Virus record (IMG/VR): IMGVR_UViG_3300034061_003372
Coordinates: 1 to 31,651 of that record
Source of the DNA: a virus
Reading direction: 5' to 3' (one strand)
Length of the DNA stretch: 31,651 bases
Shown in pieces: positions 1,237 through 30,818 of this stretch. A program made the position numbers and the translations under genes. The notes under the pieces are model-generated. The model was not told the DNA's origin and ran no database searches. It worked only from the letters and a program-made list of their open reading frames with translations. How positions within the stretch are numbered: position 1 is the stretch's first letter; every line of letters starts with the position of its first letter.

Positions 1237-1242
1237 TACTTA
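1237..1242 (-). promoter_or_regulatory. TAAGTA late-type -10 element
   Basis: CTAAGTA lies 7 nt upstream of the ATG of the gp26-like gene in a 56-nt intergenic gap that has no purine-rich ribosome-binding site. It is one of a recurrent TAAATA/TAAGTA set placed 5-9 nt before start codons. It resembles the T4 late promoter TATAAATA. Confidence 0.5.
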
Positions 1243-1285
1243 GTAGGCAAATCGCGCGCCCACCCGGAGATGTGCGCGCGAAAGA

Positions 1286-2155
1286 TTAGGACCGGGGTTG
1301 GTTTTGTTGTGCCTGACGCTGAGCCGGTGTAATCACTGTTTCACGGAAACGTTCGCGGTTGCCGCGACCAGCATCATTGTTGACACTGAGAGTGCGTTCG
1401 TCCAGATCCACGGTCAATACCCGCTTGTAGGTGAATGTCACCGACACCCGATGGATTTCATTTTGGGTGTCCCAATTCAGATCCATCTGATTGATTGCAA
1501 TGGGGAACGCTTCGAGTAGCGTACAAGTGTACACGTCTTGATCGTTCAGATCCATTTGAGTGATCGTGATGCCGGTTGAAAATTCGCCGATGTAGTTGAA
1601 GTCTTGCGTCTGTGGGTCCATGATGGAATGCATCCATCCCTCGAAGAACCACCGCTCGAACATGTCGTCCCCGACATAGAATTCAAGATCGATGTCGTTG
1701 TATTGCGGCATGTATGGAACCTTGAACTGTGCGCCATAGATGCGGTTGTCGTCGGTCTGATAAGACACGCCGGGGATTTCGGCATTGAAACAATAGAACA
1801 TCAGCCGGTTGCCGGTTTCGATAGCGTCTTTGGCACCGAACCACTGTGCCCAATTCTGGTCGTATCCGGGCGGGCCGATAGTGCGGTCCAAATTTTGAAA
1901 TAGATTGAGTGTCGCTACTTCTACCCGAAACCGATTGGGCCGGGCAAACACGTTGCTGGCAAACATCGTTGCGGTGAAATTGGTGATGTTTGCGTAGTTT
2001 GGATGATCCAACACCAGACGCGGAGAGTTGTTAACGAACGCTTCGAAGTTTGTCAGGCGCGGCGGAATCGAACTGATCGCAATCGGCTGAAATGGCGGCA
2101 AGGGCGGTAACCCAAGACGCGGAATATCTCCGACACGCGGTAGGGTGAATGACAT
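1286..2155 (-). CDS. tail-tube-fold protein, possible baseplate tube initiator (gp54/gp19-like)
   Basis: Protein of 289 aa. Residues about 70-265 look like the T4 gp19 tail-tube fold: NRFRVEV, CFNAEIPGVSY, DIDLEFYVGDD, WFFEGWMHSIMDP, TLLEAFPIAINQMDLNWD and VSVTFTYKRVL are in the expected order. It is longer than a typical major tube protein, with a Pro-rich N-terminus (PRLGLPPLPPFQP) and a Gln/Arg-rich tail. With gp26-, gp4- and gp53-like genes around it, a baseplate tube-initiator role (T4 gp54 type) is more likely than the major tube, but this is inference. AAGAGGAAATAG precedes the ATG. It follows the upstream gene by 3 nt and is probably co-translated. Confidence 0.75.
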   Translation of the reverse strand: MSFTLPRVGDIPRLGLPPLPPFQPIAISSIPPRLTNFEAFVNNSPRLVLDHPNYANITNFTATMFASNVFARPNRFRVEVATLNLFQNLDRTIGPPGYDQNWAQWFGAKDAIETGNRLMFYCFNAEIPGVSYQTDDNRIYGAQFKVPYMPQYNDIDLEFYVGDDMFERWFFEGWMHSIMDPQTQDFNYIGEFSTGITITQMDLNDQDVYTCTLLEAFPIAINQMDLNWDTQNEIHRVSVTFTYKRVLTVDLDERTLSVNNDAGRGNRERFRETVITPAQRQAQQNQPRS

Positions 2156-2158
2156 AAT

Positions 2159-3325
2159 CTATTTCCTCTTCTTCTTGGTGAATGAGCGGATCTTGCGACG
2201 TGAATCTGACCACACATAATCCGCACTCTGTTTCTGGAACATTTCCACGGGTAAGAACAGAGCGATTTCCCACTCTGATGGATGAACACGCAAGAACTGC
2301 GAACGCACGTGGCTGGACAAATACCGCTTCACGCACGGTCGCACTTCGGGGAACTTGGCGACGGAAGACAACAAAGCATAGCTCAACTTCAACTTCGTGG
2401 AGTCATCGTACCGGTCGTTGTTCTTGAATTGCATCAACTTGTCGAACAGCCTCAAACGAAGTGTCCGATCCAAGTAGTGTAGGTTGATCCCAAGGAAACC
2501 ATCGTCGTACAGTTCCAAAGGAAAGATCATCGGAAAACGGTCCCAATACGGAAGCGTCTTCTTGTGCTTGGCGTCGTAGAAGAAGAAGAACATGTTGCCG
2601 ATCAAAACATCGGCTAGTGTTTCTCCGTTGTTCACCAACCCTTTGCGGCTTGGTGTCCGCATATTGGTCAATGTTTGTTTCATCCAAGCGCGGGCCTTCT
2701 TCGTCAGCAACGGAATTCCTTCCCGGCGCATGCGATTCTTCACCTTGTCGAAGAACGTCAGCGGACGATCATCGGTTGGATAGATGCGCGGGTGAAGATC
2801 CGGTACGCTGGTCTTCTTGGTCTTGGCCTTCGCGATATCCGCCGCCGGGCTTGGCTTCGCCGGGGATGGCGGAACGGGCTTGGCTTTTGGTTTCGTCTTC
2901 GGCGGTGCGACATGCATGGTCGCGGCTTTCTTCGCCTTGGACTTGACGATAGCTCGAACGTCGTCTTTCGGAGACGGTGGGGTCGGTTTGGGCGGTTCCG
3001 GTGCGGGTGGTGGCGGCGGGGTTGCCTTGGGTCGCGTCGTTGCTTTCGGTGCCGGTGGAACCTTCGCCTTCTCTTGGCCGGGAGTCTTTTTGGCAAACGA
3101 CTTGACGATCTTCTGAATGTCCTTCAGAACATCCGCGCGCGAAACTTTCTTCGGGGACGGTTCAAGATACTTCTTGACAATTGCCCGAACATCATCCGGC
3201 GTCCCCTTCGGAAGACGGATCTTCGGCGCGGGTTCCGGTTTCACAGACACGTTGGCCTTCGGCGTAGATTTCTTCGCCTTGTCCTTGACAATCTGTGTGA
3301 TGTCGCTACTCGGTTTACGCGGCAT
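2159..3325 (-). CDS. phage structural protein with repeated Lys/Pro linker; possible gp2 (DNA end protector)-like
   Basis: Protein of 388 aa in two parts. Residues 1-190 are low complexity, Lys/Pro/Ala-rich, with about four copies of a short helix motif (DITQIVK, DDVRAIVK, DIQKIVK, DDVRAIVK) separated by proline linkers. Residues about 195-388 form a globular domain with MFFFFYDAKHKKTLPYWD, FPLELYDDGFLGINLHYLD and a basic C-terminus. I recall similar FYDPK..LPYYD..P..G.NLHYL domains from T4-like phages. The place next to gp4 and gp53 matches T4 gene 2 (DNA end protector), so a gp2-like role is possible but not shown by sequence. The ATG is weakly preceded by GAGATACTAGG. Confidence 0.7.
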   Translation of the reverse strand: MPRKPSSDITQIVKDKAKKSTPKANVSVKPEPAPKIRLPKGTPDDVRAIVKKYLEPSPKKVSRADVLKDIQKIVKSFAKKTPGQEKAKVPPAPKATTRPKATPPPPPAPEPPKPTPPSPKDDVRAIVKSKAKKAATMHVAPPKTKPKAKPVPPSPAKPSPAADIAKAKTKKTSVPDLHPRIYPTDDRPLTFFDKVKNRMRREGIPLLTKKARAWMKQTLTNMRTPSRKGLVNNGETLADVLIGNMFFFFYDAKHKKTLPYWDRFPMIFPLELYDDGFLGINLHYLDRTLRLRLFDKLMQFKNNDRYDDSTKLKLSYALLSSVAKFPEVRPCVKRYLSSHVRSQFLRVHPSEWEIALFLPVEMFQKQSADYVWSDSRRKIRSFTKKKRK

Positions 3326-3326
3326 C

Positions 3327-3767
3327 CTAGTATCTCAACTCCCGGTCGGTCATCACAGTGAATTCCCAACCCTGTTTCTTGCAAAATTCTTTGGCGGCGT
3401 TCCACTTCGCCTGATTGACAGCATAGGTAGCCATTTCGCCTAAGTACCGGGCGCTCTGTTTGCGCGTCTTCGGTTGCTTGGGCGGGAAACACTGGTCGTA
3501 GGGTTTGACTTCGATCAAGTAGGTTTTGATCTGACCGTCTTGCCTTTTGACCTGTGCCACCATGTCCACGAAATATCGGTGGATGCGATTATCGGTCGGC
3601 TTTACATACGGGACGACCACTTCTTCCGAATTCCAATGCAGGACATCCGGGTGAGCGTCAAGATGCTTCATCAGCCGGTATTCCAGCGATGAGCGGTAGT
3701 AGATGGCGTTTACGTCGCCAACGTATTTGCCCGGATTCTTGGGTCGAAACTGTCCTTGCCACGGCAC
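3327..3767 (-). CDS. head completion nuclease, T4 gp4-like
   Basis: Protein of 146 aa from a GTG start. The sequence FRPKNPGKYVGD, YRSSLEYR, HPDVLHWNSEE, HRYFVDMV and YLIEVKP is the full signature of the T4 gp4 head-completion family. This is a TnsA/restriction-endonuclease-like fold with probable catalytic residues Glu29, Asp68, Glu86 and Lys88. In T4 the protein finishes the packaged head before tail joining. It opens the leftward baseplate operon, 1 nt upstream of the possible gp2-like gene. No Shine-Dalgarno is visible; CATAAATA lies 6 nt before the GTG, so the mRNA may be leaderless. Confidence 0.92.
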   Translation of the reverse strand: MPWQGQFRPKNPGKYVGDVNAIYYRSSLEYRLMKHLDAHPDVLHWNSEEVVVPYVKPTDNRIHRYFVDMVAQVKRQDGQIKTYLIEVKPYDQCFPPKQPKTRKQSARYLGEMATYAVNQAKWNAAKEFCKKQGWEFTVMTDRELRY

Positions 3768-3773
3768 ATAGGT

Positions 3774-3779
3774 TATTTA
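3774..3779 (-). promoter_or_regulatory. TAAATA late-type -10 for gp4 operon
   Basis: On the minus strand CATAAATA (7 of 8 matches to T4 late TATAAATA) ends 6 nt before the GTG of the gp4-like gene. It faces away from a second TAAATA at 3802 that serves the gp53 side. Confidence 0.6.
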
Positions 3780-3801
3780 TGGGCGGTTCCGGGGTCGTAG
3801 G

Positions 3802-3816: not shown

Positions 3817-4371
3817 ATGCCGACTCCTTTCTTTTCAACGATTCCGTTTGTCCAATACGACATGTTGGACGACAACAACCTTCGGGCGACGGTGAACATC
3901 CTTCAGCGGGTGAAGATCCGCGATGTCATCAAGACGGAAATGCTCGAAATGTATGAGTACTCCGTCAAGGATGGCGAACGGATCGAAGACATAGCCCATC
4001 GCTATTACGGCTGGACCGGGTATCACTGGATCGTTCTTCTGGCGAATGACATCATCAACCCGTACACCGACTGGCCGCTGTCCTATGAAGATTTCATCGC
4101 ATACATTCGGGCGCAATACACCACGCCACAGCAAGACGGTCTGATTTATACCTATCAGACCCTTCATCACTACGAAGACATCCACGGCGTCCAGATCGAC
4201 TACGACACGTTTGTCCGTACCCCGGTGAACGAACGCAAGCGGGTGACACTATATGATTTCTTGGTGGCAGAGAACGACGCGAAGCGGAACATTCGATTGA
4301 TCGACAAGAAACATACGCCGATGCTGGAAGACCAGTTGATCCGGCTCATGAAGGAAAACAAGTTGGTGTAA
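3817..4371 (+). CDS. baseplate wedge protein, T4 gp53-like
   Basis: Protein of 184 aa. The N-terminus FFSTIPFVQYD is typical of gp53 family members. Residues about 45-95 (SVKDGERIEDIAHRYYGWTG, YHWIVLLANDIINPYTDWPL) form the LysM-like region of gp53. T4 gp53 joins neighbouring wedges to the hub to close the baseplate. The length is close to T4 gp53. It is the first gene of the rightward structural operon and is followed after 1 nt by the hub gene. It lacks a clear Shine-Dalgarno and has TAAATA 9 nt upstream. Confidence 0.92.
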   Translation: MPTPFFSTIPFVQYDMLDDNNLRATVNILQRVKIRDVIKTEMLEMYEYSVKDGERIEDIAHRYYGWTGYHWIVLLANDIINPYTDWPLSYEDFIAYIRAQYTTPQQDGLIYTYQTLHHYEDIHGVQIDYDTFVRTPVNERKRVTLYDFLVAENDAKRNIRLIDKKHTPMLEDQLIRLMKENKLV

Positions 4372-6343: not shown

Positions 6344-6346
6344 CCC

Positions 6347-6352
6347 TAAATA
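6347..6352 (+). promoter_or_regulatory. TAAATA late-type -10 element
   Basis: CCCTAAATAGG lies immediately after the stop codon of the upstream gene and ends 5 nt before the GTG start at 6358. No ribosome-binding site fits in this gap. Confidence 0.55.
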
Positions 6353-6645: not shown

Positions 6646-6670
6646 CCAATTAGTTATCCAGTAAGGCCGC

Positions 6671-6676
6671 TAAGTA
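6671..6676 (+). promoter_or_regulatory. TAAGTA late-type -10 element
   Basis: CGCTAAGTAGC ends 6 nt before the ATG of the membrane coiled-coil gene (spacer GCTTTT). No Shine-Dalgarno is present in the gap of 37 nt. Confidence 0.5.
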
Positions 6677-8050: not shown

Positions 8051-8080
8051 AGTATACCACACATTTGACATACAAGTCAA
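8051..8080 (-). promoter_or_regulatory. sigma70-type promoter for DUF4262 gene
   Basis: On the minus strand TTGACT (8080-8075), an 18-nt spacer and TATACT (8056-8051) end 6 nt before the ATG at 8044. It overlaps the oppositely oriented promoter at 8065-8091 within a partly palindromic block. Confidence 0.72.
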
Positions 8081-8091
8081 TATGTGATACT
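8065..8091 (+). promoter_or_regulatory. sigma70-type promoter, divergent partner
   Basis: TTGACA at 8065-8070 and an extended -10 TGTGATACT (hexamer 8086-8091, short 15-nt spacer) end 8 nt before the ATG at 8100. Together with the leftward promoter it makes an imperfect inverted repeat running from AGTATA (8051) to ATACT (8091). Confidence 0.55.
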
Positions 8092-8099
8092 CTTTTTTC

Positions 8100-9094: not shown

Positions 9095-9100
9095 CATTTA
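9095..9100 (-). promoter_or_regulatory. TAAATG late-type -10 element
   Basis: CCTAAATG on the minus strand ends 5 nt before the GTG start at 9089 (spacer TCTTT). It is a one-base variant of the TAAATA elements found before other unit-leading genes. Confidence 0.45.
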
Positions 9101-9113
9101 GGACGTGTGCGGT

Positions 9114-10760
9114 TTATGGCACCGCGCCAAGGTCTTGAACAATTGCGACCGTCACGTTATTGCCCGCACCGCCATCGGTGATGTTGATGCCGGTGCCAGC
9201 GGTCAAGACACGCTCATTGGAAAGGGTTCCGTCGTTTGCCAGACAGACGAACTGTGCGCTCGAAGAGACGCCGCCTGTCTGATTGATCGTCACGTTGGTC
9301 CGGTTCGTTGGAGTGTCATCCACCACATCAATACTGATACCAGATCCGTCGATGAAGTTGAGTTCCCGCCGGGTTCCGACCAGTGTGCCGCCTTTCGATA
9401 GACGCAAGCGCTGAACGACTGTATCCGCCGCCTGTGCAATGGTAGGATCGCCACTGACGCCATCGCCGTTGGTGATGCTGATACCGGTACCAGCGGTCAA
9501 GGTGCGCGTCGCCACCGTGCTGGTAGCAGTTTTCGCCACAATGCCGATAGAAGATCCCAAACCAACCAAATTGGTCAGTAGAGTGTTCTGTGCTTGGAAG
9601 GCCGTGTTTGTCGCGGCGGTGATTCGCCCGTAGACATCAACTGTCAGCGTGTTGTATGTGCCCGCCCCGACACCCGTGGTCGCCAAATCCACACCCGTTC
9701 CACCCACAACGATACGGCTTGCGTTCGATGTGCGCACGCTCAAAGTATTGCCGACTTTGGATAGACCATCGCCCGCCGCCACGTTGTTCGCCCCGGAGAA
9801 CTGTACCCAATCCAATCCGGTAGTGTTCAAAGTGATCGGAGCATCCGTAGCAAGAACCCATGCCGTGTCGCCGTTGGTAGAGCCTTCAGTGACCAACACG
9901 AATGTGCCCGGCAACATTTCATCGTTTGTATTCGAGTCCGCCGCCCGGCTGAGGGGTGTTGACGGTCCCGCAAACACATAGATGCCATTTTGTGATGTCG
10001 TGGTCTGATCCTTGAGCAAGACCCGATCCCCGTTGACCAGCGTTACACCGTCGATAGTGGTGCCCGGCAAAGTCAAGTTGATGTTCGCCGTCGTCGCTGC
10101 CCGGACAGACTCTTTGAACTCCAAACCGACGCGCGCGGAATCGACATATGCTTTTGTCGCCGCGTCCTGTGGATTTGTCGGGTCCAACAGGTTGATGATC
10201 TTCTGTGAGTTGAGATTGACCGAACCAGTAGGACCGGTCAGTTGGTCTAACCGGTTGGTCTGGACTGTCGCATTGAAATCGGTGATCTTGGCCGATGTCA
10301 AACTTGGAATGTCCGCCGCTGAAAGAACAGTTGCAGCGGTCACCCGGCCTTGCGCACTCACCGTGACCTTCGTATACTGTGCCGGGACAATGCCAAGATC
10401 GCTCAGATCGATGGTGGTTTTGTTTCCGGCGTTGTCATCGGTTACTGCGAAAGACGCCGTGAAGTTGAGTGCCGACCGCGTTGGCCCCGGTGTGTTGTTG
10501 GTTTGGACTTGCTGATAGACGACAGAGCTTGGAAGGTTGTCTAGTTTTGTTTTGTCCGTCGCTGACATGAATCCAGCCACACTGGTCGTTGCATTTCCGT
10601 GGACGTGGATTTCCTTTGCTAACGGATAACCGCCAAGCGTGGACCCGTCATGTACGACTACAGTCCATTTGGTCGTGTCGATGGTCACTTCACGCGGTTT
10701 GCCGGTGAAGCTCGAATGTTGGGACGTAGTGCCGCCCCGCCGTTGAATAGGTACGCCCAT
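9114..10760 (-). CDS. tail fibre protein with Mtd-like N-terminus
   Basis: Protein of 548 aa. The N-terminal ~50 residues (RRGGTTSQHSSFTG, EVTIDTTKWTVVVHDGST, GGYPLA) match the N-terminal domain of the Bordetella phage major tropism determinant and related phage fibres. The middle contains the common tail-fibre element QKIINLLDPTNPQDAATKAY and a VTLVNGDRVLLKDQTTTSQN segment. The rest is repetitive beta-structure with recurring LTAGTGI[SN]IT units (about residues 425 and 523). It should be a trimeric fibre in the virion. No variable-repeat or reverse transcriptase is seen in the window. Its ATG overlaps the stop of the upstream gene (TAATG). Confidence 0.87.
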   Translation of the reverse strand: MGVPIQRRGGTTSQHSSFTGKPREVTIDTTKWTVVVHDGSTLGGYPLAKEIHVHGNATTSVAGFMSATDKTKLDNLPSSVVYQQVQTNNTPGPTRSALNFTASFAVTDDNAGNKTTIDLSDLGIVPAQYTKVTVSAQGRVTAATVLSAADIPSLTSAKITDFNATVQTNRLDQLTGPTGSVNLNSQKIINLLDPTNPQDAATKAYVDSARVGLEFKESVRAATTANINLTLPGTTIDGVTLVNGDRVLLKDQTTTSQNGIYVFAGPSTPLSRAADSNTNDEMLPGTFVLVTEGSTNGDTAWVLATDAPITLNTTGLDWVQFSGANNVAAGDGLSKVGNTLSVRTSNASRIVVGGTGVDLATTGVGAGTYNTLTVDVYGRITAATNTAFQAQNTLLTNLVGLGSSIGIVAKTATSTVATRTLTAGTGISITNGDGVSGDPTIAQAADTVVQRLRLSKGGTLVGTRRELNFIDGSGISIDVVDDTPTNRTNVTINQTGGVSSSAQFVCLANDGTLSNERVLTAGTGINITDGGAGNNVTVAIVQDLGAVP

Positions 10761-11746: not shown

Positions 11747-11752
11747 TATTTA
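11747..11752 (-). promoter_or_regulatory. TAAATA late-type -10 element
   Basis: TTCTAAATACC on the minus strand ends 9 nt before the ATG at 11737, overlapping the C-terminal codons of the upstream repeat protein. It would let the last fibre genes be expressed separately from the long upstream operon. Confidence 0.55.
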
Positions 11753-13567
11753 GAAGTAAAACTTCGGGTTGTTGATAAGGCTCGACACCGTTGGGTCGAA
11801 TTCTGGCCGGACCAGTATTTCGACGGCGATGTGATGAACCAATGCCGGTGTAATATCCGCCGTTCGGCTCTTTTCGAGCGCCACGTGATTGATGACCGCC
11901 GGGATGCTTGTTGCGTTACGGAACCATTCCAGCGCCACATGATTGATAACGGCGGGCGGGTACGGCTGAACGACATATTCCAGCGCCATGTGGTTGATAA
12001 CGGCGGGCGGGTTCGGAGCGTTCCGCAAAGATTCAAGAGCCACCTGTTGCACGAAAGACGGGGTTGTGTCGATTTCTGTTCTTTGACGAAGTACTTCCGT
12101 CGCCACCGAAGTGACGTTCACAGGCGGATTCGGATTTGCTCCCTTCAGAAGTTCGGTTGCGACTTGGGTCAGATTGACTTTGGCCTTGATGGAGTACATG
12201 ACTTCCACGGCGCATTGTTGGATTAACGCATACCGCAATGCGCTGATCTGATTGCCAATGGCCTCAACCGCTTCTTGCTGAATCCATCCAACGTTAATTT
12301 GACGGAGAACTTCAACCGCCGTTTGAGTGTGGCGCGCCCGGCTCCCCGGTGACACCAAAACTTCATGTGCGACCTGTGATAACCGAGCATTAGAACTGAC
12401 TTGCGCCAGCACTTCGCTAACGACTTGTGTAGCTCTTGCATAAGTCAGGGTGTCTAACGTACCGACTTGATTTGCGGTGTATCCCGAATAGAAATCTGAT
12501 GTCCATGATGTGACGCCGCCCAACGTACTGGACGTTGGGGTAACATCTTCTTCCATGACACTGTAGACGTTCAGATTGACTGAACTCCAATCATACCCGG
12601 TCATCAAGACAGAACGGGGCTGTCTAAAGTTGGCGGCGGGGTAGTTCGTATACCCCCACACCAAGCGACGGTCGTAGTAACCGGAGTATAGATCGCTGAA
12701 ACGCGCCGTGACTCCGCTGAGCACCATCGATCCGGCAATGGTTTCTTGTGGTTCTACAAACCGGTTGTTGGTCACGATGCCGCCATACATTCCCGTTTCA
12801 ATCGTCACGGAAGCATTCGCGTTACAGGTGAGAGTTCCCGCTACCGCGACGGAAGATGGTACGCCGGTTTCTTCTTTGGTCAGGATTGCGGTAAGATTTC
12901 CAGTGGCAGAAAAAGATGCCGCCCCGTTGATGAGAACACCCGCCCCGACTTGCAACGAAACGGTGATCGCAGCGGTGCCATTGATAACGTCACCGCCGCC
13001 CGATGCCTGTAGTGTGCCGGTTTCAAAGAAATAGTTTCCGAAAACGTTTCCTTCGTTAGTAACGCTGTTACGACTATTGAGAATACTAATGACGCCGCCA
13101 CCGCCCCGTGACAGCTTACTGGTCGCTGTGAAAGAAAGAGACGACGGAATTGCACTCCACCCTGCCGTCCAGACACTATCACCATCGTTCCATGTGAAAA
13201 TACTGTCATCCCACGAACCGTACACAACAAATATGAATTCGGTGTCAGTAAAAATCGGTGCTGTGGTGAACAAATTGACAGTTGTGGGTATAACTGTAAG
13301 GAATTGTGGAACGTCCGTGTCATCGGTACCCGTCCAGAGTTTGTAGGTACCAATTGCATTTGCATCAGGACGCAATCCATTACTAGACACAAAGTCAAAA
13401 ACACCACCGCCGCCCCGCGATAGCTTGCTAGCCGATGTGAAGGAAAGGGAAGACGGAATAGCAACAAAGCCACCGCGCATGTCTGTGCTGATGGCTTGAA
13501 TTGCTGTCGTATTCGCTGTCCAGCTATTCGAAATTAGCTGAAGCGTGAATGTCTGTCTTCCCGGCAC
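11750..13567 (-). CDS. large repeat-containing fibre-cluster protein
   Basis: Protein of 605 aa from GTG, with AAGGAAA upstream. The N-terminal part holds a duplicated unit (about residues 32-63 and 137-168; both contain AIPSSLSFT..SKLSRGGGGV) related to phage surface/capsid decoration segments. Residues about 190-370 are beta-rich (TLGGVTSWTSDFYSGYTANQ). Residues about 375-590 contain about twelve short repeats of the form xxQVAxEVL or VINHVALE, spaced 16-20 residues apart. I have seen QVAVEVL-type repeats in phage structural proteins, but their role is not known. Position in the fibre cluster suggests a virion protein; function is unassigned. Confidence 0.78.
   Translation of the reverse strand: MPGRQTFTLQLISNSWTANTTAIQAISTDMRGGFVAIPSSLSFTSASKLSRGGGGVFDFVSSNGLRPDANAIGTYKLWTGTDDTDVPQFLTVIPTTVNLFTTAPIFTDTEFIFVVYGSWDDSIFTWNDGDSVWTAGWSAIPSSLSFTATSKLSRGGGGVISILNSRNSVTNEGNVFGNYFFETGTLQASGGGDVINGTAAITVSLQVGAGVLINGAASFSATGNLTAILTKEETGVPSSVAVAGTLTCNANASVTIETGMYGGIVTNNRFVEPQETIAGSMVLSGVTARFSDLYSGYYDRRLVWGYTNYPAANFRQPRSVLMTGYDWSSVNLNVYSVMEEDVTPTSSTLGGVTSWTSDFYSGYTANQVGTLDTLTYARATQVVSEVLAQVSSNARLSQVAHEVLVSPGSRARHTQTAVEVLRQINVGWIQQEAVEAIGNQISALRYALIQQCAVEVMYSIKAKVNLTQVATELLKGANPNPPVNVTSVATEVLRQRTEIDTTPSFVQQVALESLRNAPNPPAVINHMALEYVVQPYPPAVINHVALEWFRNATSIPAVINHVALEKSRTADITPALVHHIAVEILVRPEFDPTVSSLINNPKFYF
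11800..12460 (-). repeat. tandem coding repeats (about 12 units, 48-60 bp)
   Basis: Encodes the QVAxEVL/VINHVALE units at the C-terminal end of the 605-aa protein. The youngest units are nearly identical at DNA level: 11926-11964 and 11977-12015 match almost base for base with a 51-bp period, and a weaker copy begins near 11878. Older units (12020-12460) have diverged. This indicates recent expansion or contraction by slippage or recombination. Confidence 0.75.
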
Positions 13568-17292: not shown

Positions 17293-17693
17293 TAGATTGT
17301 GAACTGTATACTCAACCCGCCACTTGCCAACAAAAATGAATCAAGAGCATTGATCGTGACGGTTGAACTCAGTGCTCCGTAGTACAAAAGATTTCCGCTT
17401 GATGCCGCGTCCCAAATACTTATGAACGTAATCGCTCCCCATGCATTTGGATTCGCCGGGCCGAACGTGATATCCGCCGTGTTGAACGTCAAATAGCTTC
17501 CGTCAGGCTCCGTGAACGTCGCCGCTTGGCGAAGGTATCCATTACCCGTGACTTCCGTGGTCAATGCTGTCGCCGTTGATGCTGTTGGATCGGCGGTGTG
17601 GAGTCCGACAAACATAGCTGTGGGCCAAGTGAAAACATCCCCTTGGAGCGTAGCTTGCAGGACCCGATTCTGAAGGTAGAAACTCATTGGCAT
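17292..17693 (-). CDS. small phage tail fibre protein, copy 1
   Basis: Protein of 133 aa in the small tail-fibre family with the pattern N-x-[VIL]LxAxLxG..F..P, [AV]LHTADPTA, GNGYLRQ, W-G-AITFISIWDAASSGNLLYYGAL, and a final sheet. The 128-aa protein at 17706-18092 is its paralogue. Such proteins occur in many myoviruses and siphoviruses as fibre or baseplate tip components. AAGAGGTAG precedes the ATG. It is 12 nt downstream of its paralogue. Confidence 0.8.
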   Translation of the reverse strand: MPMSFYLQNRVLQATLQGDVFTWPTAMFVGLHTADPTASTATALTTEVTGNGYLRQAATFTEPDGSYLTFNTADITFGPANPNAWGAITFISIWDAASSGNLLYYGALSSTVTINALDSFLLASGGLSIQFTI

Positions 17694-17705: not shown

Positions 17706-18092
17706 TTAAGCAAACGTTGCGACCAGTGATCCAATCGAGATACGGAAAATGTCTCCCGCGCCAATGACTTTCGATGCCGCTAACGCCGCATGCATCAGCA
17801 GATTGCCACTGGTCGCCGCGTCGTATAGACCGACGTGCGTGATCGTTCCAAATGCAACCGAAGCCGGGTCCCATGTGACTTGTCCACTGTTTGAACCCAC
17901 GCCGTTCGACGGTGCCCCGAAGGTCACAGGCTGGCGGACGTAGTTACCAACCGAAACTTCTGTGCCACTCCCGGCATCGGTCGGGTTGGTTGTGAAAAGT
18001 GCGACATACACTGTCGTAGGCGACGTAAAAGCTACGTTGCGCAAGAGAGCATTGAATAGGGCGTTTTCCGCGTAGTCTGATAGTTGGGACAT
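17706..18092 (-). CDS. small phage tail fibre protein, copy 2
   Basis: Protein of 128 aa; NALFNALLRNVAFTSPTTVY, ALFTTNPTDAGSGTEVS, GNYVRQPVTF, HVGLYDAATSGNLLMHAAL define the same family as the 133-aa neighbour. The [IV]xxWDAAxSGNLL / LYDAATSGNLL block is the most conserved part. GGGAGAGAC is a good ribosome-binding site. The tandem arrangement with the adhesin paralogues suggests the two protein types assemble together. Confidence 0.82.
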   Translation of the reverse strand: MSQLSDYAENALFNALLRNVAFTSPTTVYVALFTTNPTDAGSGTEVSVGNYVRQPVTFGAPSNGVGSNSGQVTWDPASVAFGTITHVGLYDAATSGNLLMHAALAASKVIGAGDIFRISIGSLVATFA

Positions 18093-19005: not shown

Positions 19006-19011
19006 TATTTA
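19006..19011 (-). promoter_or_regulatory. TAAATA late-type -10 element
   Basis: TTCTAAATAG on the minus strand ends 9 nt before the ATG at 18996. It is the only promoter candidate seen for the genes reading left from 18996, since a terminator separates them from the upstream operon. Confidence 0.58.
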
Positions 19012-19018
19012 GAAGGGA

Positions 19019-20398: not shown

Positions 20399-21412
20399 TT
20401 ATCCCTTGACGATAATTCCGTACTGTCCCGCATTCACGTCAGCTACGGTCCATTGTGCGTTTGTGTTCGGGTTTCTCTCCCAAATCTTCTTTGCCATTTT
20501 GTATTGGCTCAAACACGTATCCTGTGATCCTTCGTATAGCGTGCTATTGACCCGCGCCAGCGGTGCCACAATACGGTTACCTACGTCGTCTTTCCGATGG
20601 GTCACACTGACCTGAACACCATACACCTGACCCACAAAGCTGTAGGTTGAAACAGTGAACAAATCGCGGTTGCCGACGATGTTTCCTTGCGTGTAGTCGG
20701 TATCTTCGTTACTGGTCGTCTCATCGACACATTGAAAATTCGATCCCGCGCCAACCGGTGTGAATTCTACAAATGCACCATTGGCGGACGGAAACCGAGT
20801 CTCAACCCGGCATTCACCAAGAAAGGCATTGTCGAATGTTCCCGTATCGTCCAAGATGTAGATGTCATCCAACCGCATATCATACGAACCGCTGTTTGAG
20901 AAAGGCTGGAATCGAATCTTGTTGATCCGGGAGTTTGAAGTTGCTTGTGTATCCAGCGCCGGAACGTTCAGTACTTCCGCGCCGTTAATACGCAACTGAA
21001 CGTATCCAACCGTGTTATCAACCAATACCTTGGCTTCGATGTAGTTGAAGTAACCGAACGCGATCACGTTGTCCGCCGTGGTCCCTAATGGAACACCGGC
21101 GCGCGTGAATTGAAACCCGGCGGTTGATGTGACACGGATGTCTACTTGGTCGTTGTTGTCATCCATGAACCGAATGATCGGCGTGGTCGCATCACCGTAG
21201 CCGATCTGAAGCGCCACACCAAGGATGAAGGTATCCCGTGCGGTGAGGTTCTGTTCCAAATAGCTGGTGGTGCCGACATTGTTGAACTGCCACGCCTGAC
21301 CACCAAAGCGGCCCGGCGCGACGATTGCCCCGTTTCCGACGACAGAAGTCCACTTGCGACCGGCTTGGCCTGTCGTGTAGTGGTCAAATCCTTCCATGAA
21401 CTGTAGTGCCAT
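20399..21412 (-). CDS. GFDHY-family adhesin, copy B
   Basis: Protein of 337 aa, MALQFMEGFDHYTTGQAGRK at the start, FILGVALQIGYGDATTPIIR and FNYIEAKVLVDNTVGYVQLR in the sandwich, YDMRLDDIYILDDTG, and the conserved C-terminal VQVSVTHRKDDVGNRIVAPL plus YKMAKKIWERNPNTNAQWTV. It is shorter than copies A and C in the middle. It lies 3 nt upstream of copy A in the same operon; AAGAGGTACTG precedes the ATG. Confidence 0.8.
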   Translation of the reverse strand: MALQFMEGFDHYTTGQAGRKWTSVVGNGAIVAPGRFGGQAWQFNNVGTTSYLEQNLTARDTFILGVALQIGYGDATTPIIRFMDDNNDQVDIRVTSTAGFQFTRAGVPLGTTADNVIAFGYFNYIEAKVLVDNTVGYVQLRINGAEVLNVPALDTQATSNSRINKIRFQPFSNSGSYDMRLDDIYILDDTGTFDNAFLGECRVETRFPSANGAFVEFTPVGAGSNFQCVDETTSNEDTDYTQGNIVGNRDLFTVSTYSFVGQVYGVQVSVTHRKDDVGNRIVAPLARVNSTLYEGSQDTCLSQYKMAKKIWERNPNTNAQWTVADVNAGQYGIIVKG

Positions 21413-22492: not shown

Positions 22493-22975
22493 CTATATCT
22501 CCGCGTCAATAACTTCGTTGGATTCCCGGACCATTTTCAAAAGATCCGTAGTCGTAATCACGACGGCTGTATTATTTACGTTCGGAGCGACAGAACCATC
22601 CTTGCCGCTTTTCAGTCGAATGTCGGTGCGGGTCTTGTTGACTCCCATCAGAGCCGTGGATGCTGTAATGCCCGCCTGTAGGATTTGTGCCAGTGCTTCA
22701 TAGGCTTTCGGGTTGTCCGATTGCCGGGCGAAGTCCATACAAGCGTCCACAGCTTCTTGCGCCTTCTCTTGCATCACCCGAAGATTTTGCCGCGCATACT
22801 GGAGATCGGCGTCCGCATCCCGCTCCGGGTCACCCGTAGCGACACACACCGGGGCTATCTCATCTGTCGGCACCGGTGCAACAACATCCACTGTTGGCGA
22901 CATCGCTTCGACGGATTCTTCAAACGACGATAACCCTAATGCGTCGTTGATCCGGTCGGAAATAGGTGGCTTCAT
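22493..22975 (-). CDS. small terminase subunit, T4 gp16-like
   Basis: Protein of 160 aa from the ATG at 22975. The core DADLQYARQNLRVMQEKAQE...CMDFARQSDNPKAYEALAQILQAGI...LMGVNKTRTDI follows the central coiled-coil of T4 gp16, which assembles into a ring that recognises viral DNA and stimulates the gp17 motor. The length matches T4 gp16 (164 aa). The large subunit is not in the window. Its ATG overlaps the stop of the upstream gene (ATGA), and a TAAATA lies 7 nt before it within that gene, so both coupling and a private late promoter are possible. Confidence 0.85.
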   Translation of the reverse strand: MKPPISDRINDALGLSSFEESVEAMSPTVDVVAPVPTDEIAPVCVATGDPERDADADLQYARQNLRVMQEKAQEAVDACMDFARQSDNPKAYEALAQILQAGITASTALMGVNKTRTDIRLKSGKDGSVAPNVNNTAVVITTTDLLKMVRESNEVIDAEI

Positions 22976-23550
22976 GCACCAGTATTTAGGGGCGTTGTCG
23001 AAGGCAATGCCCGCCCATTCATATTCACCCACTCTCGAAGGTCTTCATAGGTCACTCCAAGATGAATCACGTCGAAAATGTTGTTCATCCACACTTCGAA
23101 CTGTCCGATGATCGGGTCCGGGTTGCGAACGACTTCAAATTCAACATCACCCCACGGTCGATCAAAGATACGGAGTTCAAGTTTTGGTGTCCGTCCCTCG
23201 ATACGATATGCATAGATCGTCCCTTCCTTGGCGTCATACGTCCGCCGGAAACGGGTCCACCCATTCGCTTCCGCAAACTTACACCACCGGGCGACCTGTA
23301 CGAATTCCGGCGCGACATATTCAGTCGTCTCTGAACTGGATGCAGTGCCGCCCCGGAACCATGTTTTCGTGTTGGAAAACTCGTTTCTCTTATCATTCAA
23401 CGACGACAGCTTGATGCCGTGCTTTGCCGCCAACCGGATCGCCGTTTCGAGCGCCAGCGCCGCTTCGTGCTCCGTGCCTTCCGTTTTGGATTCGGATAGA
23501 CGCAAGAGGCCGATTAGCTTTGTTTCGATGTCAAAAGTCCTTTCGCTCAC
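22972..23550 (-). CDS. DUF2786-like protein
   Basis: Protein of 192 aa from a GTG at 23550. The N-terminal segment ETKLIGLLRLSESKTEGTEH followed by EAALALETAIRLAAKHGIKL is the DUF2786 helical pair seen in many phage and plasmid proteins of unknown function. The rest is a mixed domain (WCKFAEANGWTRFRRTYDAK, KLELRIFDRPWGDVEFEVVR, FDVIHLGVTYEDLREWV). No Shine-Dalgarno is visible; TACATA ends 6 nt before the GTG. Longer starts upstream would overlap the divergent promoter and are less likely. Confidence 0.75.
   Translation of the reverse strand: MSERTFDIETKLIGLLRLSESKTEGTEHEAALALETAIRLAAKHGIKLSSLNDKRNEFSNTKTWFRGGTASSSETTEYVAPEFVQVARWCKFAEANGWTRFRRTYDAKEGTIYAYRIEGRTPKLELRIFDRPWGDVEFEVVRNPDPIIGQFEVWMNNIFDVIHLGVTYEDLREWVNMNGRALPSTTPLNTGA
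22983..22988 (-). promoter_or_regulatory. TAAATA late-type -10 for small terminase
   Basis: CCCTAAATACT on the minus strand ends 7 nt before the ATG of the gp16-like gene and lies in the last codons of the upstream gene. Confidence 0.55.
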
Positions 23551-23587: not shown

Positions 23588-23616
23588 TTGACATATGCGT
23601 CAGAATAGGTGATAAT
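23588..23616 (+). promoter_or_regulatory. consensus sigma70-type promoter
   Basis: TTGACA (23588-23593), 17-nt spacer, GATAAT (23611-23616). The GTG at 23623 lies 6 nt after the -10, at the expected transcription start. The -35 is part of TGACATATGCGTCA, shared in form with promoters at 8065 and 29165. Confidence 0.8.
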
Positions 23617-25735: not shown

Positions 25736-25916
25736 GATTGATCCTGTAACAATGACTGAATTGGTTCGCGCCTTACAAGCGCTTTCGATGAGCGACGTTG
25801 AACACCATGATGCTCAACGCCGGTTCGATCAGATACTCGAAGAATACCACGTGACGAAAGAGCAATTCCGGGCATCCATTGCGAAGACATCGTGCGCCGA
25901 TCTGGTCAGAGAGTAA
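25734..25916 (+). CDS. small helical protein, unknown
   Basis: Protein of 60 aa (66 bp upstream contain no better start; an ATG at 25728 would add MT). Entirely helical and charged (MTELVRALQALSMSDVEHHD, FDQILEEYHVTKEQFRASIA). It fills the gap between two minus-strand genes. Its start region overlaps the start codon of the divergent deoxyribosyltransferase gene, and its end overlaps the ligase gene by 11 nt. No family recognised. Confidence 0.5.
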   Translation: MIDPVTMTELVRALQALSMSDVEHHDAQRRFDQILEEYHVTKEQFRASIAKTSCADLVRE

Positions 25917-26940
25917 CTGACCGCTTCATCGCATTCGGAACCACGGCTTGCATCATCCAGTTGTGTGCGGTGCCGACGTGTGCCCGGCGCACAAACTTCC
26001 CCACGGATTGCCGGAAGGCCCGATAGGGAAACTCATCAGCCACCCGCATCACATACCCTTCCTGTCGCTTCAAATCGAGTCGTGTGTGAATCTCCCGCAC
26101 CAGCTTGCCATCATACGGCCCACGGTACATCACCGGGACCATGTGAAGGTCTAAGATTGATGCATACTCGACTGTGGCGTCCCAAGAGAGACAAACATTT
26201 CGATCATCCCAAATCGAAAATGCCAGAAAGAAACTTGGGAGATCATCATACGGCAAGGTGTGCCGGGCATACAGATTCTCTCCACAAATCCGCCATCCGG
26301 TCGGGATATGATGAGCAATTTGCGCGTGGAGATTCTTGACCCAACCCCGCGACGGATGCGAACCGCTATCGATACTTCGTGCGTGAAGATAGTCGCTGTA
26401 CAGCGTCGTGTTCTCTCCGTCCATCTTCTCCGTGATGACGATTTCTTTCCCACAGAAGAGCCGGTCGGGATCGTCAAAGGCGCGTTCATCATCAGTGATC
26501 CCTTCACTCCACGGCACATGATATGTCCGTGGGTACTTGACATATTTGACGAATATGCCCGCCGCGATCAAAGGCATCATCACCTTCCGCACAGATTCGT
26601 CTTCCATCAGTTCGCCCGGAATTCGTGTTCCGTTGGGCTGGACGATGTTTCCCCATTTGTCATAGATCGCGTCACGGTACATGTGCTCCGGTAGCACCAC
26701 CCGCGTGATACCAGCGGCCCGCCGAATGTCATCACACGACAGAACAGTCTGTTCCGCTTTCATGTGACAATCACCACACAATGACGCACCGTTATCCATG
26801 TAGTAGCCGCCGTCGTGGAACAATCGTCGTTCAAGGATGTGATGGGCGTCTTGTGCCGCCGCCTGACAGATCACACACTTATGACCGTCCCGGCGGAATA
26901 CGCCTTCTCGAAATTCATCACGACTGAGCAGATCAGACAT
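25906..26940 (-). CDS. HNH nuclease - RNA ligase fusion
   Basis: Protein of 344 aa from the ATG at 26940. Residues 15-70 form an HNH nuclease: CVIC (22, 25), DAHHI (33-34), CGDCH (55, 58, 59). Residues about 165-320 form an RNA-ligase-type nucleotidyltransferase: motif I EKMDGENTT with Lys172, HARSIDSGSHPSRGW, motif III-like ICGENLYARH, motif IV EGYVMR (294-299) and motif V GKFVRR with Lys315. The ligase part matches bacterial and phage RNA ligases with KMDGEN signatures. The fusion joins cutting and sealing in one chain. TGATACAAT, an extended -10, ends 7 nt before the ATG and no Shine-Dalgarno is present. Confidence 0.85.
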   Translation of the reverse strand: MSDLLSRDEFREGVFRRDGHKCVICQAAAQDAHHILERRLFHDGGYYMDNGASLCGDCHMKAEQTVLSCDDIRRAAGITRVVLPEHMYRDAIYDKWGNIVQPNGTRIPGELMEDESVRKVMMPLIAAGIFVKYVKYPRTYHVPWSEGITDDERAFDDPDRLFCGKEIVITEKMDGENTTLYSDYLHARSIDSGSHPSRGWVKNLHAQIAHHIPTGWRICGENLYARHTLPYDDLPSFFLAFSIWDDRNVCLSWDATVEYASILDLHMVPVMYRGPYDGKLVREIHTRLDLKRQEGYVMRVADEFPYRAFRQSVGKFVRRAHVGTAHNWMMQAVVPNAMKRSVTL

Positions 26941-26947
26941 ACAAGTC

Positions 26948-26953
26948 ATTGTA
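26948..26953 (-). promoter_or_regulatory. extended -10 for HNH-ligase gene
   Basis: TGATACAAT on the minus strand with hexamer TACAAT ends 7 nt before the ATG at 26940. The -35 region is weak. The block also holds GACATACAAGTCA, found exactly once more in the window, in the divergent promoter at 8067. Confidence 0.55.
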
Positions 26954-26979
26954 TCACATTGAGAAACGAGTCGTTGTGG

Positions 26980-26985
26980 TAGAAT
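26980..26985 (+). promoter_or_regulatory. extended -10 for the multi-HTH gene
   Basis: TGGTAGAAT, with hexamer TAGAAT, ends 9 nt before the ATG at 26995; AAGGA in the spacer is too close to act as a Shine-Dalgarno. It is divergent from the ligase promoter. Confidence 0.42.
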
Positions 26986-26994
26986 GTTCAAGGA

Positions 26995-28290
26995 ATGTGG
27001 AACAAACGACTCGAACGGCACGCCGCTTCCATGCGGCGGCGTTTCGCCAGAGAAGCGGAGAAAGAAGCCGCCCGGCTGTTAAAGCAACAGAAGAAGGAAG
27101 AAAAGGCCAATCGTCGTCTTGCCCTCGAAATAGAAAGAACGAAAAATAGCCGCACTGCCTTTTTATTCGCCACATTTTGTGCCAGCCGCAAACTGTTTTT
27201 GTCGTGGATGGAATTTTTCGTTCGATGTCCTTGGTTGGTCCCGGTACTGTTGACGTTCCGGCCAGAATCAACCAAGACAGAACCACCCAAGTATGACCGG
27301 TTCCGCCGCCCGGAAAAGTTGAAATGCACCGAAGAGGAAATTGCCATCCTACACAAGCACGGATTGCATACGTCCCGCGCCGCCAAGGAACTGGACTGGT
27401 CCGCCGAACGGGTCATGCGATACGGGTTGAGCTTGGGCGTCTTCACTGAAGAGGATCTGATCGCCCGCATAGGCCGGAAAGGTCGTCCGAAGAATCCACC
27501 CAAACCGCCCCAAGCAAAACAGGAACGTCAGAGAAAATACGTGTCAACACCTGAAATCGATGCCCTCATCATTTCTGAGACTCCGACCAAAGACATCGCC
27601 CAACAGATCGGATGGCCCCGGCAAGCCATCTGGAAACGACGGAAAGAAATCGGGCACGGTCGTCCGGTCGGCTCTCCCAAGTATCACGCCACCCCGGAAA
27701 TCGATAAGGTCATGCGCACCTATCCCGGAGAATTCACCAAGGTCGGTAGCATCATCGACTGGCCGGTGTGGGCCGTCGAACGGCGCATGAAGGAACTCAA
27801 CGTCGGCAACGGAACCAATTATCGGTTCCGCGACGATGAAGCCGAAATCGTTCAACTCCTGAAAGACAATCAAGGATGCATCGCTGATGTCCGGCGCATT
27901 CTCAAAGCCAAAGGCCAATCCCGCACAGAGAAATTCGTCAAGACCATCCGCGACAAACATGGCATCGTCTTCACCAAGAAGATCGTCATCCCAAGCACCA
28001 AAGGCCAAACCAAAGCACTGGACGGTTTCGTTCAAAGCCTGTTAGAATTGAGCACCCGGAAACGGAAGGAATACTTCCAGACGATGCACCGGGCGCTTCC
28101 TGAAGTACTCTCCCGAAGCGTGATTTCGAACCTCATTCATGTGAGTCGGAAAACGATTGACTCTTATGTGAAGCAAGGATGGCTACCCATTGAAAAAAAC
28201 GAATTCGTCCAGTTCCTCATCGACCAGTGTGATTACATGTCCGCGATGCAAGGGAACGAACACCAAGAAACAGCCACAGCAAACGGGTAA
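26995..28290 (+). CDS. multi-HTH DNA-binding protein
   Basis: Protein of 431 aa, family not recognised. Residues 1-50 are a basic coiled coil (RFAREAEKEAARLLKQQKKE). Several HTH-like segments follow: TSRAAKELDWSAERVMRYGL, TKDIAQQIGWPRQAIWKRRK, FTKVGSIIDWPVWAVERRMK and, near the end, VLSRSVISNLIHVSRKTIDSYVK. Each resembles a homeodomain-like helix pair, separated by 45-70 residues, as in repeat-type DNA-binding proteins. It is probably a regulator or DNA organiser. The last 62 nt overlap the zinc-ribbon gene. Confidence 0.72.
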   Translation: MWNKRLERHAASMRRRFAREAEKEAARLLKQQKKEEKANRRLALEIERTKNSRTAFLFATFCASRKLFLSWMEFFVRCPWLVPVLLTFRPESTKTEPPKYDRFRRPEKLKCTEEEIAILHKHGLHTSRAAKELDWSAERVMRYGLSLGVFTEEDLIARIGRKGRPKNPPKPPQAKQERQRKYVSTPEIDALIISETPTKDIAQQIGWPRQAIWKRRKEIGHGRPVGSPKYHATPEIDKVMRTYPGEFTKVGSIIDWPVWAVERRMKELNVGNGTNYRFRDDEAEIVQLLKDNQGCIADVRRILKAKGQSRTEKFVKTIRDKHGIVFTKKIVIPSTKGQTKALDGFVQSLLELSTRKRKEYFQTMHRALPEVLSRSVISNLIHVSRKTIDSYVKQGWLPIEKNEFVQFLIDQCDYMSAMQGNEHQETATANG

Positions 28291-29140: not shown

Positions 29141-29170
29141 ATTGTAGCACCCCATCGACGTATATGTCAA
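29141..29170 (-). promoter_or_regulatory. consensus sigma70-type promoter for coaD
   Basis: On the minus strand TTGACA (29170-29165), 18-nt spacer, TACAAT (29146-29141), then 7 nt to the ATG at 29133. The -35 lies in TGACATATACGTC, of the same form as at 8065 and 23588. Confidence 0.8.
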
Positions 29171-29182
29171 TCGGTCAGAACA

Positions 29183-29188
29183 TAAGTA
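29183..29188 (+). promoter_or_regulatory. TAAGTA late-type -10 element
   Basis: ACATAAGTA ends 5 nt before the ATG at 29194; AAGGG overlaps the gap and could act as a ribosome-binding site for a start at 29200 if the transcript began earlier. Confidence 0.48.
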
Positions 29189-29193: not shown

Positions 29194-30309
29194 ATGGCAA
29201 TGAAGTTCATCGACGGTTTCGACCACTATTTCTTCTCTCCCACTGCCAAGAAGAAATGGGATGACCAAAGCGGTATGGTAATTTCCGCACCGGGTCGATT
29301 TGGATATGGAAACAAAATGCGCCCCGCTGGTTCCGGTAGCCTCTTCCAACTATTTTGGACTGGTGCCTCAAAAACTACCCACCCCGGCGGTACAAGCAAA
29401 ATCATCACCGGTGCGGCTCTTCGATTCGATGCTGGCGTTTCCACCAGTGTGGCGTTCCATCCTTTCCTTGCCATTCGCGGTGACAACCTTCGACATCAAG
29501 TCCAGTTCTTCATGGAAGCCAACACCGGACGAATTCGATGCGGTTTGGCTGATCCCACATGGCCGATAACAGTATCCGGGATCGATCCAACAACTATTCC
29601 ACCAACGTGGTACCCCGATACGGATTTCGTTCCGCCGTTCGGCCTGTGGTTCTTTTTTGAAGTCGCTGTCTCCACGACCGGCACCGTGGACATCTATGTG
29701 GATAGTGAATTGTTGACTTCTATGACCGGCCTGACAACCCTTAGTGGCGGCGCGTCCAGCTACATCGGCGTTCGGTGGATGGGTGTGTCTCAATTCAATT
29801 CCGGGTATGATATGGATGATCTGTACATCGCCGATGGTACTGGTTCCCACGTGAACGATCCGATTGGCGAATCCCGCATTGAATACGTCACCGCAACCGC
29901 CGAAGGCGATGTCAACGACTGGCTTCCATCGGTCGGAACCAACAACGCCGCCAATGTAGACGGCACCACACAGTTTGGTGAAAATGGAACTCAAAACGGA
30001 AACCCCGCACAGTACAATATCTCTGATGTGCTCAACGCCGTCGATCTGTACCAACATGCCGACTTTACCCGCGACGGGACCATCTATGCCGTTCAAGTCA
30101 ACACCGCCGTCCGTAAAGACGACGTGGGCAACCGCAAAGTCAAGCCCTTGCTGAAGACCGGCGGCACCACCTACGAAGGACCGGAATCCAAGCTGTACTC
30201 AGACTACATCTACGTCGGTGAAATCTGGCCGCAAAATCCAAACACGTCAGCCGACTGGACCCTCTCTCAAGTCAATGCCGTCCAGACCGGCATAAAAATT
30301 AGCACCTAA
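29194..30309 (+). CDS. GFDHY-family adhesin, copy C (solitary, plus strand)
   Basis: Protein of 371 aa, MAMKFIDGFDHYFFSPTAKK at the start. It follows copy A over its whole length: FHPFLAIRGDNLRHQVQFFM, DFVPPFGLWFFFEVAVSTTG, SGYDMDDLYIADGTG, NNAANVDG, VQVNTAVRKDDVGNRKVKPL, YSDYIYVGEIWPQNPNTSAD. The reading frame stays open upstream, antisense to coaD, but homology with the MALxFMDGFDHY starts fixes the N-terminus here. It stands alone on the opposite strand, about 9 kb from copies A and B, with its own promoter element. Confidence 0.82.
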   Translation: MAMKFIDGFDHYFFSPTAKKKWDDQSGMVISAPGRFGYGNKMRPAGSGSLFQLFWTGASKTTHPGGTSKIITGAALRFDAGVSTSVAFHPFLAIRGDNLRHQVQFFMEANTGRIRCGLADPTWPITVSGIDPTTIPPTWYPDTDFVPPFGLWFFFEVAVSTTGTVDIYVDSELLTSMTGLTTLSGGASSYIGVRWMGVSQFNSGYDMDDLYIADGTGSHVNDPIGESRIEYVTATAEGDVNDWLPSVGTNNAANVDGTTQFGENGTQNGNPAQYNISDVLNAVDLYQHADFTRDGTIYAVQVNTAVRKDDVGNRKVKPLLKTGGTTYEGPESKLYSDYIYVGEIWPQNPNTSADWTLSQVNAVQTGIKIST

Positions 30310-30331: not shown

Positions 30332-30360
30332 TTGACATCACGCCAAGGACGCGGTATAAA
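30332..30360 (+). promoter_or_regulatory. consensus promoter (sigma70 / late hybrid)
   Basis: TTGACA (30332-30337), 17-nt spacer, TATAAATA starting at 30355. The -10 is at once a good sigma70 hexamer and an exact T4 late box. Unlike most other promoters here it is followed by a leader with a Shine-Dalgarno. Confidence 0.82.
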
Positions 30361-30379
30361 TAGAATCAGGAAACGCGAC

Positions 30380-30424
30380 ATGATCCGCTCCATGTATCAG
30401 TATCGCCAAGAACATATCGGCTAG
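30380..30424 (+). CDS. 14-aa leader peptide
   Basis: ORF of 14 codons (MIRSMYQYRQEHIG) with AGGAAA at good spacing, starting about 13 nt after the predicted transcription start. Its stop codon overlaps the first strand of a hairpin series (30424-30476). It is too short to be a functional domain; it resembles leader peptides whose translation controls downstream RNA folding. It contains two Tyr and three Arg codons. Confidence 0.45.
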   Translation: MIRSMYQYRQEHIG

Positions 30425-30476
30425 CGCCGATGCCCAACAAGCATCTGGCGCTGAACCGAACGGCGGATGCTTGGGC
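30424..30476 (+). promoter_or_regulatory. mutually exclusive hairpins in a leader
   Basis: Hairpin 1: AGCGCC and ATGC (30423-30433 region) pair with GCAT and GGCGCT (30441-30452). Hairpin 2: GCCCA plus AGCATC (30432-30445, 3-nt bulge) pair with GATGCTTGGGC (30466-30476). They share the GCATC segment, so only one can form. Directly after a short translated ORF this resembles an attenuation or ribosome-controlled switch. There is no clear T-run after hairpin 2. Confidence 0.4.
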
Positions 30477-30548
30477 GTAGCGGAAAACACACCTATCACG
30501 GTTCCCTCCCCTCTCTAAAATCCCCTAACAGTTCAGTTGCTAGAACGC

Positions 30549-30578
30549 TTGCACAGGTATCGCACGCAAAGCTAAATG
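30549..30578 (+). promoter_or_regulatory. promoter with TAAATG -10
   Basis: TTGCAC (30549-30554), 18-nt spacer, TAAATG (30573-30578), then 6 nt to the ATG at 30585. No Shine-Dalgarno. Confidence 0.45.
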
Positions 30579-30584
30579 CTTGGC

Positions 30585-30818
30585 ATGCAACGTACTGAAG
30601 CGCATGTGTTGTATGACCGCTCGAAGTCTGAGCTTGAAAAACTGAAGTTGGGTCACCCGTTTGTTGAAAAAGTAGTGCGTGTCGTCGTTGAGACGGAAGC
30701 GCATCGACTTGGTATCAAAACGCTTGATCCAGTGAACGTCGTCCTCATGGACCTAATGCCGTGGGCGATGGAAAAGGCTGAACGCGACCGGGCAAAACCA
30801 AAGCCCGGTGGTGGTTGA
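30585..30818 (+). CDS. small helical protein, unknown
   Basis: Protein of 77 aa from the ATG at 30585; a start at 30576 would lie inside the -10 element. Helical and charged (RTEAHVLYDRSKSELEKLKL, KVVRVVVETEAHRLGI), ending in a basic KPKPGGG tail. No family recognised. The stretch from the leader ORF (30424) to here otherwise holds only the hairpins and a pyrimidine-rich segment. Confidence 0.6.
   Translation: MQRTEAHVLYDRSKSELEKLKLGHPFVEKVVRVVVETEAHRLGIKTLDPVNVVLMDLMPWAMEKAERDRAKPKPGGG

Follow-up and report, generated by a model that had tools for sequence, protein, structure and literature searches.

The 31.6-kb stretch of DNA considered here (IMG/VR record IMGVR_UViG_3300034061_003372, 31,651 nucleotides (nt), hereafter the window) is a virus fragment that belongs to a T4-like myovirus. 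Using PHROG profiles, T4-type late genes have been identified in it for the gp2 DNA end protector, the gp4 head closure protein, the tail tube, the baseplate hub, the gp53 baseplate wedge protein and the small terminase; a Pfam search with ten window proteins returned no matches. Positions 1-24997 of the window are 100% identical to positions 24997-1, on the opposite strand, of a 224-kb contig of the same virus (IMGVR_UViG_3300044641_007115, designated G001), which made genome-wide tests possible; the 299 genes used for that contig are our own calls from a simple gene caller. The subject of this analysis is a hexamer, TAAATA or a close variant, that ends a few nucleotides before the start codons of a number of these genes.

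Eleven such sites had been listed in an earlier note made from the window sequence, and all eleven are present. They are given here as putative late promoters, the gap being counted from the end of the motif to the start codon:

1237..1243, minus strand: CTAAGTA, 7 nt before ATG 1229 (baseplate hub, 459-1229)
3774..3780, minus strand: ATAAATA, 6 nt before GTG 3767 (gp4 head closure, 3327-3767); gap identical in L002-L005
3801..3807, plus strand: GTAAATA, 9 nt before ATG 3817 (gp53 baseplate wedge, 3817-4371); divergent to the gp4 promoter
6346..6352, plus strand: CTAAATA, 5 nt before GTG 6358 (95 amino acids (aa))
6670..6676, plus strand: CTAAGTA, 6 nt before ATG 6683 (252 aa)
9095..9101, minus strand: variant CTAAATG, 5 nt before GTG 9089 (156 aa, lysine-rich)
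11747..11753, minus strand: CTAAATA, 9 nt before ATG 11737 (tail protein, 10760-11737)
19006..19012, minus strand: CTAAATA, 9 nt before ATG 18996 (294 aa)
22983..22989, minus strand: CTAAATA, 7 nt before ATG 22975 (small terminase, 22493-22975)
29182..29188, plus strand: variant ATAAGTA, 5 nt before ATG 29194 (phrog_2448 protein); outside G001
30572..30578, plus strand: possible variant CTAAATG, 6 nt before ATG 30585 (77 aa); outside G001; weakest of the eleven

The sites before 29194 and 30585 are the least secure, lying beyond G001, being seen in the window alone and having variant motifs; the gene at 30585 is a short open reading frame (ORF) of no known function with an alternative start 9 nt upstream. 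As the note had stated, Shine-Dalgarno sequences are scarce here: none of the eleven genes has one, while the operon-internal genes that it cited mostly do. Its estimate that seven of about ten TAAATA hexamers in the window are so placed was right as to the bias in position and orientation and wrong as to the count, which is six of nine, counted where an ORF of 60 aa or longer begins 5-9 nt after the hexamer, as against 3 of 52 when its letters are permuted in other ways.

Over the whole of G001, 31 of the 55 copies of TAAATA end 5-9 nt before an ATG or GTG that opens an ORF of at least 60 aa, against a base rate of 4.6% (log10 P -26.5), and among all 4096 hexamers it ranks first for enrichment at that distance from starts. 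The 14 other permutations of its letters reach 33 of 320, and 14 of these 33 are ATAAAT, an overlapping, shifted read of the same motif. Upstream of the called genes, TAAATA lies at 5-9 nt in 22 cases, compared with a mean of 0.53 and a maximum of 4 in shuffled sequence, so that the scan against a shuffled background proposed in the earlier note gives a sharp excess at just this spacing. Chance arising from AT-richness is ruled out by these permutation, all-hexamer and shuffle controls and by the reversed-pattern control given below. Weaker variants are also found at gaps of 4-10 nt (CTAAGTA in 5 of 8 copies, CTAAATG in 6 of 11 and CTAAACA in 8 of 18). The gaps at 47 sites are distributed as 14 at 5 nt, 17 at 6 (31 at these two values), 5 at 7, 3 at 8, 6 at 9 and one each at 10 and 11, with two matches only below 5, both at 3. 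Of the 37 called genes that have the motif 4-10 nt upstream, 34 lack a Shine-Dalgarno. Ordinary ones are present before many of the other viral genes, and the motif is confined to a subset of genes rich in operon heads and late functions.

In T4, the late promoter TATAAATA spans -13 to -6, and Aeh1 uses CTAAATA from -12 (PMC1524935); T4 late promoters have no conserved -35, and roughly one helical turn separates their box from the transcription start (PMC2988020). An element of this TATAAATA/CTAAATA type is found upstream of late structural genes in G001, the genes behind it being those for the small and large terminase, portal, gp4, gp53, hub, gp48 and a UvsW-like helicase. The virus also encodes a gp55 late sigma factor (G001 82673-83209; phrog_234, E 2.4e-55; gp55 in PDB entry 7d7c, E 1e-20), a gp33 co-activator (32658-32843; phrog_254, E 4.7e-13, at a relaxed cut-off that also gave weak matches in four control genomes) and a gp45-type sliding clamp (91265-91990), which was missed by the Pfam DNA_PPF model alone and was found in a search of solved structures (T4 gp45, E 7e-11; RB69 gp45, E 3e-11). 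The motif is to all appearance the known gp55-class late promoter element. Its tight spacing to the start codon would also suit a translation-initiation motif, an A/T-rich sequence recognised by the ribosome in place of a Shine-Dalgarno on mRNAs starting further upstream, and non-Shine-Dalgarno initiation motifs are known in some bacteria, such as Bacteroidetes (PMC6847099). Such a role is nevertheless highly improbable for a motif that equals the T4 and Aeh1 late promoter in a virus encoding gp55, gp33 and gp45, that occurs in G001 also 31-44 nt upstream of genes with an AGGAG, in relatives mainly at that distance, and that is limited to the operon-head and late subset while many other genes use Shine-Dalgarno sequences.

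With the element ending at -6, a gap of 5 nt puts the start codon at +1; gaps from 5 upward with a peak at 5-6 therefore predict that nearly all of these genes have either no leader or one of up to about 4 nt, and the lower edge at 5 marks the point below which the start codon would precede +1. At the 47 sites, with their gaps of 5-11 nt, the spacing would place +1 about 5 nt or less from the start codon. It is thus very likely, as judged from the arrangement of motif and genes, that the T4-like late promoters of this virus abut the coding sequence, most motif-bearing late genes being leaderless and four genes for abundant virion proteins leadered. The motif would be read by the RNA polymerase of the host with gp55 as its sigma factor, together with gp33 and the gp45 clamp; in most motif-bearing late genes transcription would begin on the start codon or 1-4 nt ahead of it, and ribosomes would have to initiate on the resulting leaderless mRNA. 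The earlier note's proposal of a T4-like late regulon with leaderless starts gains support from the three regulators, the gp55-class motif, the identities of the late genes and the spacing for 0-4-nt leaders, with two amendments: leaderless starts would extend beyond the late genes, and a leader with a Shine-Dalgarno is retained before the four most abundant virion genes.

Aligned sites across the clade to which the virus belongs show 8 substitutions in 266 motif positions, compared with 50 in 235 positions of the spacer and 186 in 1520 of the upstream 40 nt. The short-gap layout is kept in species at 94-96% and at 81% identity, and the terminase gene of the 81% relative retains both its 5-nt gap and its GTG start with a changed spacer. 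The late promoters might be real and the true start codons lie further downstream, giving messages with ordinary leaders; where genes have no homologues their starts rest on calls, and for a few, such as the small terminase, the caller chose a downstream start. Homologues of the terminase, portal and gp4 align from residues 1-5 of the proposed N-terminus, however, so these three starts are very probably right, and displaced starts would leave the sharp peak at 5-6 nt unexplained in the face of a gap conserved across species despite spacer change; this alternative is extremely improbable. A further one is that leaderless late messages are minor and that most protein comes from longer transcripts of upstream promoters, some motif sites overlapping the stop codon of an upstream gene on the same strand, where read-through is possible. 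This too seems highly unlikely, as 15 of the 37 genes have an upstream neighbour on the opposite strand, six more lie over 100 nt from a same-strand neighbour, and 34 of the 37 offer no Shine-Dalgarno to serve a longer transcript.

Some observations weigh against leaderless late starts. Ten of the 55 TAAATA sites in G001 have no ORF start within 45 nt; the starts come from a simple gene caller, and a few of the short ORFs may be spurious; and GTG stands at 11 of the 47 starts. GTG is in fact commoner among the putatively leaderless genes (8 of 37, compared with 22 of 262; P 0.02). Leaderless GUG is initiated poorly by E. coli (PMC9031893), so the model needs a host that accepts leaderless GTG starts.

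The genes of a second tier have the ancestral layout. In these the motif lies 31 nt upstream of the start for the major capsid protein (gp23), 34 for the scaffold (gp22), 44 for the sheath (gp18) and 39 for the tail tube (gp19), each with an AGGAG, and subtraction of five gives leaders of 26-39 nt. The major capsid, scaffold, sheath and tube are the highest-copy products of T4. The leadered AGGAG layout is conserved in related contigs, for the sheath down to 83% identity, and these four genes would thus have retained a promoter 31-44 nt upstream and an AGGAG leader, while those for portal, terminase, head closure and baseplate are predicted to be leaderless.

The short spacing appears to be confined to one clade of 53% GC, with at least three species (terminase identities of 100%, 96% and 81%). 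Over whole genomes and both strands, the short-gap pattern outnumbers its reversed control by 37 to 5 in G001, 30 to 3 in G002 and 6 to 0 in G011. No such excess is seen in T4 (34 vs 51), phiM12 (7 vs 11), Cr30 (3 vs 17) or Aeh1 (10 vs 18), and the excess is weak or strand-biased in X1 (7 vs 2), Mendera (5 vs 1) and Syn9 (28 vs 18, mostly on the plus strand); with these four and most other phages lacking an excess, the short gap is ruled out as a general T4-like trait. When the 14 loci ranking highest for short gaps are left out, 42 short sites stand against 501 long ones in about 190 loci from IMG/VR that have a relative of gp4, gp55, terminase or portal, and in 71, 75 and 31 outgroup loci the motif is never found at 4-10 nt before the starts of terminase, portal and gp4, respectively.

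The virus shares with T4 its gp55, gp33 and gp45-type clamp, as well as a short -10-like element before late genes with no recognised -35. It differs in the placing of that element: in T4 a Shine-Dalgarno often lies between promoter and start, whereas in the G001 clade most promoters are 5-9 nt away with none between. The T4 octamers between 60 and 120 kb lie 13-32 nt upstream, mostly at 26-28, with none at 5-9. Aeromonas phage Aeh1 has the identical heptamer CTAAATA, with C at -12 (PMC1524935), but not the short gap. The G003 group and Sinorhizobium phage phiM12 have related late genes and the same motif; G003 has gp55, gp33 and a gp4 that is 54% identical, the promoter of which faces gp53 there too, but the motif is found for the most part at 24-32 nt before the starts, close to which AGGA-type Shine-Dalgarno sequences occur, and in phiM12 the motif lies about 30-45 nt upstream. 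The leaderless layout, as read from this spacing, is thus not seen in T4 or the other relatives examined. Leaderless late transcripts of T4-like phages were looked for in the literature and not found, which is weak evidence of absence. The cI message of phage lambda is leaderless, with a -10 directly before its start codon. The leaderless mRNAs of Deinococcus and mycobacteria are similar: a -10 stands directly before the start, and the message opens, or nearly opens, with AUG or GUG (PMC9031893). In Deinococcus, mycobacteria and lambda cI, host sigma factors and either single genes or host-wide use are involved, whereas here it would be the regulon of a phage-encoded sigma factor.

Putative sigma70-type promoters (TTGACA-N17-TANNNT) were also detected and fall into two groups, one with a -10 that ends 6-7 nt before the start, the other with a 17-nt gap containing ATGGAGAGACGAC, a conserved early mini-leader with a GGAG core that stands directly before the ATG and after a -10 of the TATTCT or TACTCT type (examples at G001 201259(-), 203288(-) and 188200(+)). 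Sigma70-type promoters in the window are as follows, leaderless being predicted from the spacing:

23588..23616, plus strand: TTGACA-N17-GATAAT, ends 6 nt before GTG 23623; leaderless early-type gene
8065..8093, plus strand: TTGACA-N17-TACTCT, ends 6 nt before ATG 8100; leaderless; -35 inside the palindrome TTGACATACAAGTCAA
8051..8080, minus strand: TTGACT-N18-TATACT, ends 6 nt before ATG 8044; leaderless; divergent, shares the palindrome (G001 16918-16954)
29141..29170, minus strand: TTGACA-N18-TACAAT, ends 7 nt before ATG 29133; leaderless
30332..30360, plus strand: TTGACA-N17-TATAAA (TATAAATAGAATC), upstream of a tRNA-Tyr pair; the TAAATA here is not a late promoter

The leaderless class among these early promoters, with a gap mode of 6-7 nt, rules out a restriction of leaderless starts to late genes, and leaderless initiation would therefore not be peculiar to gp55 transcription; the simplest inference is that the host probably translates leaderless mRNA well. 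A search for that host with the large terminase against genome contigs gave one match, at 48% identity, in a contig of a Thermoleophilia metagenome-assembled genome; at that distance it points to no particular host. The palindrome TTGACATACAAGTCAA (window 8065-8080) spans the overlapping -35 boxes of the two divergent promoters, and copies of the similar TTGACATATAAGTC mark many early promoters of G001; the palindrome could be an operator. A common sigma70-type promoter, TTGACA-N16/17-TATAAATAGA, is found upstream of tRNA genes or arrays (window 30332-30360; G001 129485, 208794 and 39411(-)). TATAAATAGAATC (window 30355; G001 129509 and 208819) and the similar TATAAATAGAGATG (G001 39387(-)) are ruled out as late promoters, since they share bases with the -10 of a TTGACA promoter and are followed by tRNA genes. 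About 40 tRNA genes, covering most amino acids and with several anticodons in two copies, are encoded in three arrays (G001 34839-39190, 129865-138437 and 209061-212239), and a tandem tRNA-Tyr pair lies at window 31207-31409. A permuted transfer-messenger RNA is also phage-encoded, at G001 ~44855-45219(-) (L041 4855-5219; Rfam RF04321, 98 bits; ARAGORN tag ANSNVLAMAA).

Other features were noted among the window genes. The gp2 DNA end protector (2159-3325, minus strand) is extended at its N-terminus by about 190 residues, basic and repetitive in appearance, and its C-terminal half alone matches other gp2 proteins. An RNA ligase (phrog_24030; 25906-27021, minus strand) also matches HNH endonuclease families in its N-terminal part and is possibly an HNH-RNA ligase fusion. 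The phrog_2448 protein, to which no function is assigned, has three paralogues (19277-20395, 20399-21412 and 29194-30309), and two phrog_240 head proteins are adjacent paralogues (17292-17693 and 17706-18092).

Taking late and early genes together, the balance tips slightly towards a clade in which the greater part of the late regulon, along with many early genes, has moved to leaderless mRNA, suiting a leaderless-tolerant host, and in which Shine-Dalgarno leaders remain only for the products required in the largest amounts, capsid, scaffold, sheath and tube. If so, protein stoichiometry would be set by whether or not a leader follows the promoter, itself uniform, and the split within a single late regulon makes the relative output of leaderless and Shine-Dalgarno messages directly testable. 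In the textbook system of T4 late transcription, the messages have leaders that include ribosome-binding sites; a clade that shares the late sigma factor and promoter but lacks the leaders would be a natural experiment on a regulon-wide change in translation initiation. A T4-related virus with this layout is known from metagenomes only. The finding would tie the promoter architecture of a phage to the translation style of its host, and phage contigs in which the -10 lies close to the start may be of help in predicting leaderless-tolerant hosts.

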